Below, one piece after another: positions 1,333 to 48,848 of a stretch of 64,000 nucleotides of DNA. Made by a program: the position numbers and the translations under genes. The notes below the pieces were generated by a model. The model saw only the letters and a program-made list of their open reading frames with translations. It had not been told where the DNA came from and ran no database searches. How positions within the stretch are numbered: position 1 is the stretch's first letter; every line of letters starts with the position of its first letter. Source of the stretch: Streptomyces cucumeris (lineage in GTDB: Bacteria > Actinomycetota > Actinomycetes > Streptomycetales > Streptomycetaceae); NCBI RefSeq assembly GCF_024295805.1, contig NZ_JANCLX010000026.1:1-64000 (forward strand). The letters run 5' to 3'.

Positions 1333-3192
<1,860 letters not shown>

Positions 3193-5922
3193 GTGACCAG
3201 TACAGCCGAACCCCCGAGCGGTGCCGGGGCCAGAGGCCCGGGGCTCAAGCTGCTCGCGGTGACCGCCTGTCCGACGGGCATCGCCCACACCTATATGGCC
3301 GCCGAGAAGCTGGCCCGGACCGCGGAGTCGCTCGGCCACAGCATGAAGGTGGAGACCCAGGGATCCATCGGGGCCGAGAACGTACTGTCTGACAACGATG
3401 TCAGAGGGGCGGACGGCATCATCATCGCCGCCGACAAGGACGTCGACCGCAGCCGGTTCGTGGGTAAGCGGGTGCTGGTCGTCGGGGTCGCCGAGGGCAT
3501 CCACCATCCGGAGCGGCTGATCGAGCGGGTGCGCAGCGCGCCGGTCCACCGGGGCGAGGGCGACGGCAACGGTGACGGTGACGGTGACGGTGACGGCAAC
3601 GGGACGTCCGGAGCGGCGGGCCGGGCGCCCGGTGACCCCGGCGGCAAGGGGCGCGGCGTCACCTATAAGGCGCTCATGAACGGCGTCTCGTACATGATCC
3701 CGTTCGTCGTGGTCGGCGGACTGCTGATCGCGGTCTCGCTCGCGCTGGGCGGTGACACGACGTCCAAGGGGATCGTCATCCCCGACGACTCCTTCTGGAA
3801 GTCGGTCAACGACATCGGCGTCATCGGCTTCCAGCTGATGATCCCGATCCTGTCCGGCTATATCGCCTACGCGATCGCCGACCGGCCCGCGCTGGTGCCG
3901 GGCATGGTGGGCGGCTGGATCGCCGCCCACGGCGAGCTGTACGACAGCGAGGCGGGCGCCGGGTTCATCGGGGCGATCGTCACCGGTTTCCTCGCCGGTT
4001 ATCTGGTGCGGTGGATCAAGAAGGTCAAGGTCCCCAAGTTCGTTCAGCCGATCATGCCGATCATCGTGATCCCGATCGTGGCGACCACGGCGCTCGGGCT
4101 CTTCTTCATCTATGTGCTCGGCGAACCGATCGCCTGGGTCTTCGAGCACCTCACCGACTGGCTGGGCGGGCTGACCGGCACCAGCGCGGCGCTGCTCGGG
4201 ATCATCCTCGGACTGATGATCGCGTTCGATATGGGCGGGCCGGTCAACAAGACGGCGTTCCTCTTCGGCGCCGGGCTGGTTTCCAAGAACCCCGAGGTCA
4301 TGGGCATGTGTGCGGCGGCTATTCCGGTGCCGCCGCTGGGTCAGGGCCTGGCCACGCTGATCCGTCGGCGGATGTTCGACGACCAGGAGCGGGAGACCGG
4401 GCTCGCGGCGCTGTTCATGGGCTTCTTCGGGATCACCGAGGGGGCGATCCCGTTCGCGGCGGCGCGTCCGGCCCGGGTCATCCCGGCGAACATGCTCGGC
4501 GGCGCGGTCGCCGGTGCCATAGCGGGACTGGCGTCCGTCGAGGACAACGTGCCGCACGGCGGGCCGATCGTGGCGGTGCTGGGTGCGGTCGACGGTGTGG
4601 CGATGTTCTTCGTCGCCGTGATCGTCGGGACGGCGGTCACCGGGCTGGGGACGATCGCGCTGATGTCCCTGGGCCGGGATGGCGGTGGCAGCGGCGCGGT
4701 GTCGCCGGCCCCGGCGGGCGCCCGCGTTCCCGCGCCGACGCCCGAGCCGGTCCTGGCCGGGGCCGCCGGAGGCGCCGGAGGCGGTACGGGTGGTACGGGT
4801 GGTACGGCCGCATCCGCCGCGGCCGGTAAGAAGGCTGCCGTCGTGCCCACCCCAACGGCTTCGCCCGAGGCTGAGCCGGGGGTTCGGCCCGAGGCCGAAC
4901 GCACAGCCGTGGCCGGGCTCGTAGGCCAGGCCGACGCAGGGGCCGACGACGAGGCGGAAGGCGGCCCACAGGCGCGCCCGGAGGCTGGCGTCCCGGCCCG
5001 GACCGGGGCCGGGACCGGGATCGAAGGCGGGCCCGGATCCAAGGCCGAGCCGGACGCCGACCGCGAGGGCCCGACAGCGGGCGGCGAGGCTGCCGAGACC
5101 GCGGCCGGGAGTGGTTCCGGCGCCGAGGGCGCTTCCGAGGCTGCAGTCGAGGCCGGTCAGGCGGGCCCCAGCAGCACCAGTGGCATCGGAGGGACACCGG
5201 ACAGCGGCGTTGCCAAGGCCGCGGGCGCGGGTGGTACCGGGGCGGGCTCCCAGGCGGACGGCCGCACCGACTCCGGCGGCACGGGCCGGACACCGGTCAG
5301 CGGCACTGCCGAGGCCGCGACCGTGAGAGGCAGCACCGCCGCTGGAAGCGCTGCGGCGGCTACGGCCGCCGGCCACGTCGGCTCCGGCGGCGCGGGCCGG
5401 ACAGCGGGCGGTGTCGATGCCGCGGGCGGTCCCGTGGCTGCGACCGAGGGGGGTTCCGGCGGCGGGTCGGTGTTGTCCGGCTACCTCACCGAGCGGACGG
5501 TCGCCGAGCGGCTGACCGCCGGCGGCAAGGACGCCGCCATCCGCGCGATGGCGGCCCTGCTCACCGGCACCGGCCAGGTCACCGACGCGGACGGGCTGGT
5601 CACGGCGGCGCTCGCCCGTGAGGAGCAGGGCACCACCGGACTCGGTGAGGAGATCGCGATCCCGCATGCCAAGACGGACGCGGTCACCGCTCCGCTCGTC
5701 GGGTTCGCCCGGTCCGAGGAGGGCGTGGAATGGGGTGCTCCGGACGGCACCAAGGCCCGGCTGATCTTCATGATCGCGGTGCCGGAGGCCGCCGCGGGCG
5801 ATGAGCACCTGCGGATCCTGGCCCTGCTGTCGCGGAAGCTGATGTCCCCGGAGTTCCGCGAGCGGCTGCTCACCGCCCCGGACAAGCCGTCGATCCTGGA
5901 GGTCCTGGGCGAGATCCAGTAG
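3193..5922 (+). CDS. fruA: PTS fructose-type permease, EIIB-EIIC-EIIA fusion with very long linker
   Basis: 909 aa from GTG 3193, chosen because AAGGAG lies just upstream; an in-frame ATG at 3103 has no ribosome site. EIIB spans about residues 18-115 with the phospho-cysteine motif TACPTGIAHTYMA (Cys26). A Gly/Asp-rich linker follows, then membrane EIIC at about 155-495 (FDMGGPVNKTAFLFGAG, GFFGITEGAIPFAA). EIIA lies at about 758-909 with the phospho-histidine in EEIAIPHAKTDAV (His825). The protein would import and phosphorylate fructose or a related sugar. Residues about 496-757 form an Ala/Gly/Thr/Glu low-complexity linker, far longer than in the Streptomyces FruA proteins I recall (about 700 aa). 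No fruK or DeoR-type fruR gene is adjacent, so the substrate is not fixed by context. Confidence 0.9.
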   Translation: MTSTAEPPSGAGARGPGLKLLAVTACPTGIAHTYMAAEKLARTAESLGHSMKVETQGSIGAENVLSDNDVRGADGIIIAADKDVDRSRFVGKRVLVVGVAEGIHHPERLIERVRSAPVHRGEGDGNGDGDGDGDGNGTSGAAGRAPGDPGGKGRGVTYKALMNGVSYMIPFVVVGGLLIAVSLALGGDTTSKGIVIPDDSFWKSVNDIGVIGFQLMIPILSGYIAYAIADRPALVPGMVGGWIAAHGELYDSEAGAGFIGAIVTGFLAGYLVRWIKKVKVPKFVQPIMPIIVIPIVATTALGLFFIYVLGEPIAWVFEHLTDWLGGLTGTSAALLGIILGLMIAFDMGGPVNKTAFLFGAGLVSKNPEVMGMCAAAIPVPPLGQGLATLIRRRMFDDQERETGLAALFMGFFGITEGAIPFAAARPARVIPANMLGGAVAGAIAGLASVEDNVPHGGPIVAVLGAVDGVAMFFVAVIVGTAVTGLGTIALMSLGRDGGGSGAVSPAPAGARVPAPTPEPVLAGAAGGAGGGTGGTGGTAASAAAGKKAAVVPTPTASPEAEPGVRPEAERTAVAGLVGQADAGADDEAEGGPQARPEAGVPARTGAGTGIEGGPGSKAEPDADREGPTAGGEAAETAAGSGSGAEGASEAAVEAGQAGPSSTSGIGGTPDSGVAKAAGAGGTGAGSQADGRTDSGGTGRTPVSGTAEAATVRGSTAAGSAAAATAAGHVGSGGAGRTAGGVDAAGGPVAATEGGSGGGSVLSGYLTERTVAERLTAGGKDAAIRAMAALLTGTGQVTDADGLVTAALAREEQGTTGLGEEIAIPHAKTDAVTAPLVGFARSEEGVEWGAPDGTKARLIFMIAVPEAAAGDEHLRILALLSRKLMSPEFRERLLTAPDKPSILEVLGEIQ

Positions 5923-22404: not shown

Positions 22405-22557
22405 GGGTTCGCTCTCGGTGGCGTGTGCGGGGTGCTGAGTGCGCCGCTGCGGCGCTCGGGGCGCGCGGGTGCGAGGTGCGCGCCGTGGGTGGGGGCGCGC
22501 GTTGTGCGGGGTGGGGTGTGGGGGTGCGGTGGGTGTGCGGCGCGGGGTGGCCGGGTG

Positions 22558-22634
<77 letters not shown>

Positions 22635-22651
22635 CGGCGGGGGGGGGCGGG

Positions 22652-22850
22652 GTGCGGGTGCGGGGCCTCCGGGGTGGGGTCCTGGACCGTATATTTACGG
22701 CGCCGGTACCCGGAGACGTGAGCCTGGGCCGGAGATTGGCGCCACAAATACGCCCCTGGCCTTCGGCATGGGGAACCCCGCAGCGTCCAGGACCCCACCC
22801 CTGCGACCCCGCACCCTCCCGCCTCGTCGTCGACCACCCGCCGGACCGGG
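22652..22850 (+). repeat. MITE-like element, arm A of an inverted pair
   Basis: The 131-bp core at 22671-22801 starts with GGGGTGGGGTCCTGGAC and ends with its exact reverse complement (22785-22801), i.e. perfect 17-bp terminal inverted repeats. The same core occurs inverted at 23901-24031 with about five differences by eye. Similarity continues about 19 bases outward on the left and about 50 on the right. Inside are the AT-rich near-palindrome CCGTATATTTACGG and GGCGCC boxes. No transposase is encoded, so it fits a non-autonomous element. Confidence 0.8.
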
Positions 22851-47408: not shown

Positions 47409-48848
47409 TCAGCGGCTGCCGCGCAGCCTGCGCCACGGAGTGAGGGTGAAGACCGCGCCGCCGAGCAGCACGGAGGTGCCGGCGATCAGGGCGAGCGCCT
47501 TCAGCCCGCCGTGGTCGTTCGCGCCGGTCTCGGCGAGTCCGCCGCTGGTGCCACCGGACGAACCACCGCCGGACGTACCGCCGGTGCCACCGGAGGTGCC
47601 GCCGGAGCTGCCGCCCGAACCGCCGGAGGTGCCGCCGGACGTACCGCCGGGCTGGGCCGTGGTGTCCAGCTCCAGCGAGGCGCCGGGGTCCTTGGCCGGG
47701 GTGCAGGTGGTGGTCGTACCGAGCGCCTTGACGGTCAGCACCCCGGGGGTGAGTGTCGCCTTGCCGCTCGCGCCCGGTTTGTAGGTGCCGGTGAGGTCCG
47801 GGATCTCGATCGGGTCACCGGACTTGATGGGCCCCTTGTTGGTCGGGCCCTCCACGGCGACCTCGCCCTTGTCGGCACCGCCGACCTTCACCGCCATCGC
47901 GGGCTTGACGGAGTCGGCAGGGATGTCGGCCGGGCTGTCCATCACGGACTTGCCGAACTTGACGGTGAGGTCGAAGCTGCCGCCCTTCTTGGTGGCGTTG
48001 ATCTGGACCGGGGAGGTGGCCTCCTTGTCGCCGATGGGGGTCTTGCAGCGGTAGTCGACGCTGACCTGCTTACCCGTCTGGGTGTCGCCGTCGCCGCCAC
48101 CGCCACCGCTGGTCGAACCACCGGTCGTGGTGCCACCGGTGGTGGAACCGCCCGTGGTCGTCCCACCGGTCGTCGTACCGCCCGTGGTCGTCCCACCGGT
48201 CGTCGTACCGCCCGTGGTCGTCCCACCGGTCGTCGTACCGCCCGTGGTCGTGCCACCGGTCGTCGTACCGCCCGTGGTGGTCCCACCGGTGGTCGAACCG
48301 CCGCCGTCGGTCACCTTGATGGTGGCGGCGGCCTTGACCGTCTCCTTGGCCGAGCACTTGGTGTCCGTGGAGATCGGCTTGCTGACGTTGATGGTGTACG
48401 CACCGGGGGTCAGCGTGACCTCCCCGGCCTTCGTCAGCTTCAGCTTGGCCTTCATATCGGACAGCTTCATCGGGCTGTCCTTGGGGATCGGCGGGTTCTC
48501 CCGCGCCCCCTCCACGGCCAGATCACCGGTCTGCGCCCCGCCCACCGTGAGGGTGCCGGTGGGCTTCACGGTGTCCTTCTCCAGATCGAGGATGGGCGGG
48601 TTCTTGGAAGCGGCCTGCACCGTCTTCCACACCACCTCGACCTCGTCGCCGACCTTGGCGGTGGCCGGGGCCTGGACGTCCACCGTCGTGGTGCCCTGCA
48701 CCGGCGGCATACCGGAGATCGGCGGTGGCAGGCACTCGGTCTTGTACGAGACCTCGGCGCCTTGTGCGGTACTCGCGCCGAACAGCACGCCCGCACCGCC
48801 GAGTACCAGCGCGGCAACGGCCGCGCCCACTCTTCGTTGCGTACTCAC
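47409..48848 (-). CDS. LAETG sortase-anchored surface protein with two beta domains and TTTGG repeat linker
   Basis: 479 aa from GTG 48848, overlapping the upstream stop by 4 bp. Signal peptide (about 1-31, AVAALVLGGAGVLFGASTAQG), beta domain 1 (about 34-178), a Thr/Gly repeat (about 181-250), beta domain 2 (about 258-400, with CKTPIGDKEATSP and TTTCTP cysteines), a Gly/Ser linker, then LAETG (438-442), a hydrophobic helix and basic tail RRLRGSR. LAXTG is the motif of class E sortases in Streptomyces. Domain 2 closely matches the LPQTG protein at 50920-51672. No sortase gene lies in the window. The function is unknown, perhaps a structural or adhesive wall protein. Confidence 0.85.
   Translation of the reverse strand: MSTQRRVGAAVAALVLGGAGVLFGASTAQGAEVSYKTECLPPPISGMPPVQGTTTVDVQAPATAKVGDEVEVVWKTVQAASKNPPILDLEKDTVKPTGTLTVGGAQTGDLAVEGARENPPIPKDSPMKLSDMKAKLKLTKAGEVTLTPGAYTINVSKPISTDTKCSAKETVKAAATIKVTDGGGSTTGGTTTGGTTTGGTTTGGTTTGGTTTGGTTTGGTTTGGTTTGGTTTGGSTTGGTTTGGSTSGGGGGDGDTQTGKQVSVDYRCKTPIGDKEATSPVQINATKKGGSFDLTVKFGKSVMDSPADIPADSVKPAMAVKVGGADKGEVAVEGPTNKGPIKSGDPIEIPDLTGTYKPGASGKATLTPGVLTVKALGTTTTCTPAKDPGASLELDTTAQPGGTSGGTSGGSGGSSGGTSGGTGGTSGGGSSGGTSGGLAETGANDHGGLKALALIAGTSVLLGGAVFTLTPWRRLRGSR
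48115..48300 (-). repeat. 30-bp tandem repeat inside the LAETG gene
   Basis: About six copies with a 30-base period; units at 48151-48180, 48181-48210 and 48211-48240 are identical. They encode 10-residue TTTGGTTTGG blocks, i.e. a flexible linker. The near-perfect DNA identity implies recent expansion, so copy number may vary between strains. Confidence 0.9.

Follow-up and report, generated by a model that had tools for sequence, protein, structure and literature searches.

A long, predicted disordered linker between EIIC and EIIA in a Streptomyces fructose-family PTS enzyme II is the extreme case of a variable family trait

The DNA analyzed here (referred to as the window) comprises the first 64,000 nucleotides of a contig (NZ_JANCLX010000026.1) of Streptomyces cucumeris and contains a gene (3193-5922, forward strand) for a PTS protein of 909 aa with the domain order EIIB-EIIC-EIIA. 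In this protein 267 stop-free residues (4675-5475) separate the EIIC domain, which ends at residue 494, from the EIIA domain, which starts at residue 762. The question raised by this locus is what such a stretch represents, how it came to be so long and whether its length matters to the enzyme. A linker of about 260 residues had been claimed from the sequence alone (the original prediction), and its existence was confirmed. The protein is a fructose-family PTS enzyme II, as the EIIC, EIIB and EIIA profiles all scored above their cut-offs (Table 1). The EIIB-EIIC linker of the same protein (34 aa) is also long, ranking 8 of 76 with a median of 21 aa in the other 75. On the opposite strand, a 1001-aa open frame (2803-5808) runs over nearly the whole gene and was taken as a by-product of the high G+C content.

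Table 1. Features of the PTS gene and of its EIIC-EIIA linker (positions in the window)
Feature	Coordinates	Strand	Details
Fructose-family PTS enzyme II, EIIB-EIIC-EIIA	3193..5922	+	909 aa, GTG start, stop included
EIIB domain	3256..3525	+	PF02302, residues 22-111; TIGR00829 105.7 bits vs cut-off 76.85
EIIB-EIIC linker, 34 aa, with Gly-Asp array 3569-3596	3541..3642	+	
EIIC domain	3643..4674	+	Residues 151-494; TIGR01427 302.7 bits vs cut-off 157.55
EIIC-EIIA linker, 267 aa, predicted disordered	4675..5475	+	
Motif PEPVLAG in EIIC-EIIA linker	4741..4761	+	22 residues past EIIC
Two 9-nt arrays, Ala-Gly-Gly and Gly-Thr-Gly codons	4756..4807	+	4756-4783 and 4783-4807
Degenerate repeat copy 1	5053..5114	+	Self-alignment vs codon shuffles
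Degenerate repeat copy 2	5164..5223	+	Self-alignment vs codon shuffles
Degenerate repeat copy 3	5253..5325	+	Self-alignment vs codon shuffles
Degenerate repeat copy 4	5364..5436	+	Self-alignment vs codon shuffles
EIIA domain	5476..5919	+	Residues 762-909; PF00359 over cut-off; TIGR00848 114.5 bits vs cut-off 103.5

The stretch delimited originally (4675-5463, 263 codons) was described as made almost only of A, G, T, S, E, P and R, a wording that was a little strong: these residues amount to 224 of the 263 (85%), with G and A alone contributing 132, and the other 39 are V (16), D (10), K (4), Q (4), L (2), I (2) and H (1). Two stops occur in each of the other two forward frames of the tract, and the opposite strand has one open frame as well. 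Since the DNA is G+C-rich and this opposite frame is open too, openness alone is weak evidence for a maintained reading frame; the frame is considered open beyond chance because it is kept across very different linker lengths, in 75 of 77 orthologues and in 38 of 38 members of a second set of genomes (see below). Disorder, proposed as a check together with the original claim, was judged by model confidence, and the outcome agreed with it. In an AlphaFold2 model of the window protein, built with 58 of the 76 in-frame sequences (alignment A1; alignment A2 held 38 of the 76), residues 497-759 were assigned neither helix nor strand, and 229 of these 263 residues lie in segments listed with pLDDT below 50; the EIIA domain reached pLDDT values of 85-98 per block of ten. 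The linker of a short-linker orthologue (L046) was likewise structureless, and both models had a pTM of 0.47, with much of EIIC poorly modelled. From its low-complexity composition, fast evolution and low model confidence, the stretch is predicted to be a disordered interdomain linker.

The gene had originally been named FruA, an assignment that its domain order and its neighbours do not support. A second fructose-family EIIC, encoded on another contig (C89) of the same genome, scored 381.9 bits compared to 305.7 for that of the window, and belongs to a 675-aa protein of the order A-B-C whose gene lies beside those of a 1-phosphofructokinase (TIGR03828 over cut-off) and a DeoR-type regulator. 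Both proteins combine the same EIIB, EIIC and EIIA families, with identity at 152 of 326 aligned EIIC residues, whereas the linkers of the A-B-C protein are short by eye. The FruA of Bacillus subtilis is also described with the order A-B-C (PMC6148471). The order B-C-A and the lack of an adjoining 1-phosphofructokinase gene set the window protein apart from operon-type FruA, and its scores stayed below the NCBIfam equivalog cut-offs for MngA (369.1 vs 763 bits) and enterobacterial FruA (359.5 vs 793 bits). The window gene is thus probably not the FruA of this genome, being an EIIB-EIIC-EIIA paralogue.

The paralogue is flanked by ahcY on one side and by a CDF gene and manA on the other. The full six-gene order is found in 67 of 81 sequences, including the window, and a shorter run of it, compatible with contig ends, in 13; one locus (L044) yielded no CDF gene. 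Upstream of the gene, many of the orthologue contigs (L001-L080) stop at a distance of about 3 or 5 kb, and in the window, too, the first position is a contig end. A structured RNA was considered as a cause of these ends, and no Rfam match was obtained in searches covering from six kb to whole loci; some stretches of these upstream regions read N.

The order B-C-A is shared with ManP, the mannose permease of B. subtilis (fructose/mannitol family), described as EIIBCA in the available part of the source (PMC6148471), and manA lies near the window gene. When EIIB was compared alone, the best solved match of the window domain was 2r48, a mannose-specific IIBCA (115.6 bits, next 97.5); the EIIB of the A-B-C paralogue also matched 2r48 best, by 1.7 bits only compared to 18 for the window EIIB. 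An operon of manP with manA is reported for B. subtilis, and the ManP of Vibrio cholerae is likewise described in an operon with manA (PMC9392796). In the window, by contrast to the B. subtilis operon, manA is on the opposite strand and the CDF gene stands in between. The adjacency of manA as a proof of mannose uptake was weakened, as the ahcY-manA block stands without a PTS gene in 15 of 15 examined genomes lacking an EIIC-Fru match, with a gap of 1374-2083 bp compared to 3710-4928 bp in 20 carriers. These non-carriers are the 15 genomes with both genes on one contig among 20 listed, out of 32, without an EIIC match; the carriers were hand-picked and include the window and one genome (G012) counted as such by its EIIA row only. 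A ManP-type mannose permease is a lead only for the identity of the window protein. In the literature searched, which left out most subscription papers, no publication title on the linker or on the Streptomyces gene was found.

Whether the linker is peculiar to this strain was addressed by its length among relatives. In the best 80 of 543 relatives, a choice that favours kin of the window, the linker was measurable in 77 loci and ranged from 27 to 188 aa (mean 81, median 75); the contigs of the other three (L003, L006 and L062) stop within about 100 bp after EIIC. The window linker is the longest of the 78 measured (77 orthologues plus the window) and, on a log scale, exceeds the 77 orthologues by 2.9 SD; compared to a hand-picked group of nine near relatives from its clade (75-134 aa, without the off-frame L029 and without L015, which has 95 aa), the excess is 5.1 SD. 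EIIC and EIIA are in frame in 75 of the 77 orthologues; in L029 and L068 they are mutually out of frame, by a frameshift or a sequencing error. As the first 80 had been chosen by likeness to the window, a second set was drawn evenly from the genus. Among the matches listed from 150 genomes there were 40 B-C-A EIIC rows, one of them (G017) without EIIA on its contig, which left 38 further genomes and the window. The linkers of these 38 are about 42-211 aa long (median 82.5) and all are in frame, and that of the window is again the longest of the 39 among the matches listed. A clade of 15 orthologues keeps short linkers (27-57 aa). Comparison of these sequences indicates that a long linker of very variable length is a family trait, which makes the window linker an extreme case within an otherwise ordinary class. 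The length comparison proposed originally thus had a mixed outcome: the linker is general in orthologues, although none is as long as that of the window.

Outside the genus, no B-C-A protein was seen in a small sample of 61 genomes; strong EIIA matches in two of them (G166 and G167; E up to 1e-32) were considered as B-C-A candidates and discarded, since their reading frames show A-B-C proteins. One orthologue (L020), titled Streptosporangium nondiastaticum, sits well inside a Streptomyces clade of the gene tree and is perhaps mislabelled.

Between 5053 and 5436 of the window, a unit of 32-40 aa recurs in the linker as four degenerate copies, all in frame, with offsets of 96-120 nt and identities of 74-79%. 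Four pairs scored 25.5, 22.5, 22.0 and 19.0, whereas none of 60 codon shuffles exceeded 18.5; a fifth pair equals this maximum, and one weaker pair (17.0, below the maximum) is out of frame. The original statement that the tract has no obvious period therefore has to be amended, as these copies and the two 9-nt arrays are present. Likewise, the proposed codon-repeat expansion was supported in that the expansion is in frame, whereas the simple arrays span only about 50 nt and the bulk consists of diverged 32-40-aa copies. The nearest neighbour of the window in the gene tree, L001, has a linker of 123 residues; in DNA alignment the first ~105 residues of the window linker appear to match most of it, and the last ~160 residues, which include the four copies, seem to have no counterpart there (protein alignment places the tail otherwise). 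An expansion that has kept the frame open and is tolerated, as originally put forward, agrees with these ~160 residues and with the rank of the linker in both sets.

When the 54 linkers that are in frame and reach 60 aa were scanned, with overlapping windows allowed, 25 of them, the window included, had a repeat pair above all of 100 codon shuffles. Over these 25 linkers the mismatches between internal copies are even across codon positions (71/63/72). The window's own copies show 26, 27 and 10 changes at positions 1, 2 and 3 (80 codons, four overlapping pairs), an excess at positions 1 and 2 that is unlike the prediction of neutral drift and is absent over the 25 linkers. A different, Ser-rich array is found in the linker of about 211 aa (G146). 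Taken together, we infer that in-frame duplication expanded the linkers repeatedly and that the copies may then have changed with little regard to the residue.

Repetitive stretches of other kinds were noticed as well. The linker of L004 (Streptomyces niphimycinicus) carries a run of 40 alanines, either real or an assembly artefact. Elsewhere in the window there are a 30-nt tandem array (48103-48302; 6.7 copies, 91% matches), a degenerate 33-nt array (47566-47650) and a G/T-rich repeat-like stretch (22425-22665), in which a poly-G tract occupies 22559-22634 (39 G and 34 G separated by AAA) and may be real or a sequencing or assembly artefact.

A tract of this kind could owe its length to misassembly, or be partly a sequencing artefact. 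The genome is a draft in 98 contigs, an artefact-like poly-G stretch lies in the same window, and the tract seems hard to assemble, since three orthologue contigs break off no more than about 100 bp past EIIC. Yet the frame runs open as far as an intact EIIA, the copies, all in frame, have diverged (74-79% alike), linkers in other genomes reach 188 and about 211 aa, and the composition and third-position GC of the window linker match those of its orthologues (0.801 vs a mean of 0.805, SD 0.08; 0.94 in EIIC), so that an artefactual length is regarded as quite improbable.

Regarding constraint, dN/dS among five close species was 0.02 for EIIC, 0.17 for EIIA and 0.46 for the linker, the last value being rough because it comes from a gapped low-complexity alignment. 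The linker is not featureless, as 30 of 76 linkers share a short motif, EP(V/A)L(A/V)G, near their EIIC end (shuffle mean 0.02, maximum 1). It is preceded by 15-19 linker residues in 20 of the 30 carriers and by 23 in the window, and is present in both large halves of the gene tree; 45 of 76 linkers have a looser form of it (shuffle mean 2.2) and 14 of 76 a second pattern, V(V/A)(A/T)(Q/K/E)(R/K/G/S) (shuffle mean 2.1, maximum 7). These motifs would fit a linker that is a working element, in which EP(V/A)L(A/V)G docks EIIC, EIIB, EIIA or a regulator and length tunes the contact. Against this, the strict motif is missing from 46 of 76 linkers, including those of near relatives (L001, L004, L007 and L010) and of all 15 members of the short-linker clade, the excess was calculated from shuffles that ignore shared descent, and the motif region has no structure in the AlphaFold2 model (pLDDT around 30-46). 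Docking by the linker is hence deemed unlikely, and a similarly low probability was given to the broader proposal that in the Streptomyces B-C-A proteins a conserved docking motif together with a ten-fold length series (27 to 267 aa) would set phosphotransfer or regulation, as a quantitative trait evolving via in-frame repeat expansion. The original suggestion of a spacer that changes how EIIA docks found no evidence in its favour, AlphaFold2 assigning no structure to the linker. Weak, mainly compositional constraint is the best reading of these sequence comparisons.

The end of the linker was also considered as a place where translation might restart. If free EIIA were also made from a start codon there, the linker DNA would serve as a leader separating two products. 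In the window the linker closes with GTG-TTG, and Val-Leu ends 62 linkers; however, GTG encodes this Val in 30 of the 62, a share similar to that for Val at other linker positions (235 of 540), and a Shine-Dalgarno-like purine run lies upstream in 19 of 62 and is absent in the window, all of which makes this arrangement very improbable.

The interpretation that we consider probable is that the tract is a disordered tether of EIIA to EIIB-EIIC, of near-neutral length, lengthened in this lineage by in-frame duplication. Such a tether would hold the phosphocarrier EIIA near the EIIB of the membrane-bound EIIB-EIIC, phosphate passing from HPr to EIIA, then to EIIB and to the sugar. Its length would be weakly constrained because the probability of contact is expected to drop slowly with linker length. 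In the window lineage, duplication in frame of a 32-40-residue stretch, along with short codon arrays, would have brought the linker to 267 residues, and divergence would have followed; the tether function, the near-neutrality and this order of events are deduced from the comparisons above. In an estimate for a self-avoiding chain (R = 0.55 nm x N^0.588, with assumed parameters and domain volumes ignored), a linker of 75 aa has an end-to-end distance of about 7 nm and gives an effective EIIA concentration of about 1.6 mM, compared to 15 nm and 0.17 mM for one of 267 aa. Transfer between EIIA and EIIB may need only micromolar EIIA; if so, lengthening would cost little and length would therefore be free. 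Variation of linker length while EIIC and EIIA stay conserved supports the tether, as do the retained frame, the lack of modelled structure, the higher dN/dS of the linker and the internal repeats, whereas the shared motif, the short-linker clade of 15 and the position 1 and 2 excess in the window copies count against a merely passive one.

Other PTS proteins contain short, flexible, low-complexity linkers rich in Ala and Pro between their domains, which the window linker resembles in being low-complexity, flexible and placed between PTS domains. In the part available of a study on B. subtilis, strains with the EIIA of PtsG split from EIICB grew like the strain lacking glcK and ptsG, and stand-alone EIIA proteins also occur in this organism (PMC6148471). 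A covalent EIIA link can matter, but it is not a general need, since stand-alone EIIA proteins exist in B. subtilis. Domain-linker-domain enzymes, as far as covered by the available text (PMC6540235), are alike in that a flexible chain sets the effective concentration of the tethered domain; they differ in that their linker length is reportedly tuned, with very long linkers lacking, compared to the ~ten-fold length range of the window family.

Altogether, the tether looks tolerated and not specially useful. The likely mis-naming of the window protein is corrected, as it is not the one encoded beside 1-phosphofructokinase. Disordered interdomain tethers are common; what this family offers is a single orthologous phosphotransfer protein in which tether length varies naturally by a factor of ~ten, the end domains and the gene neighbourhood being conserved. 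Such a series would let the effect of tether length be tested directly in the living cell.
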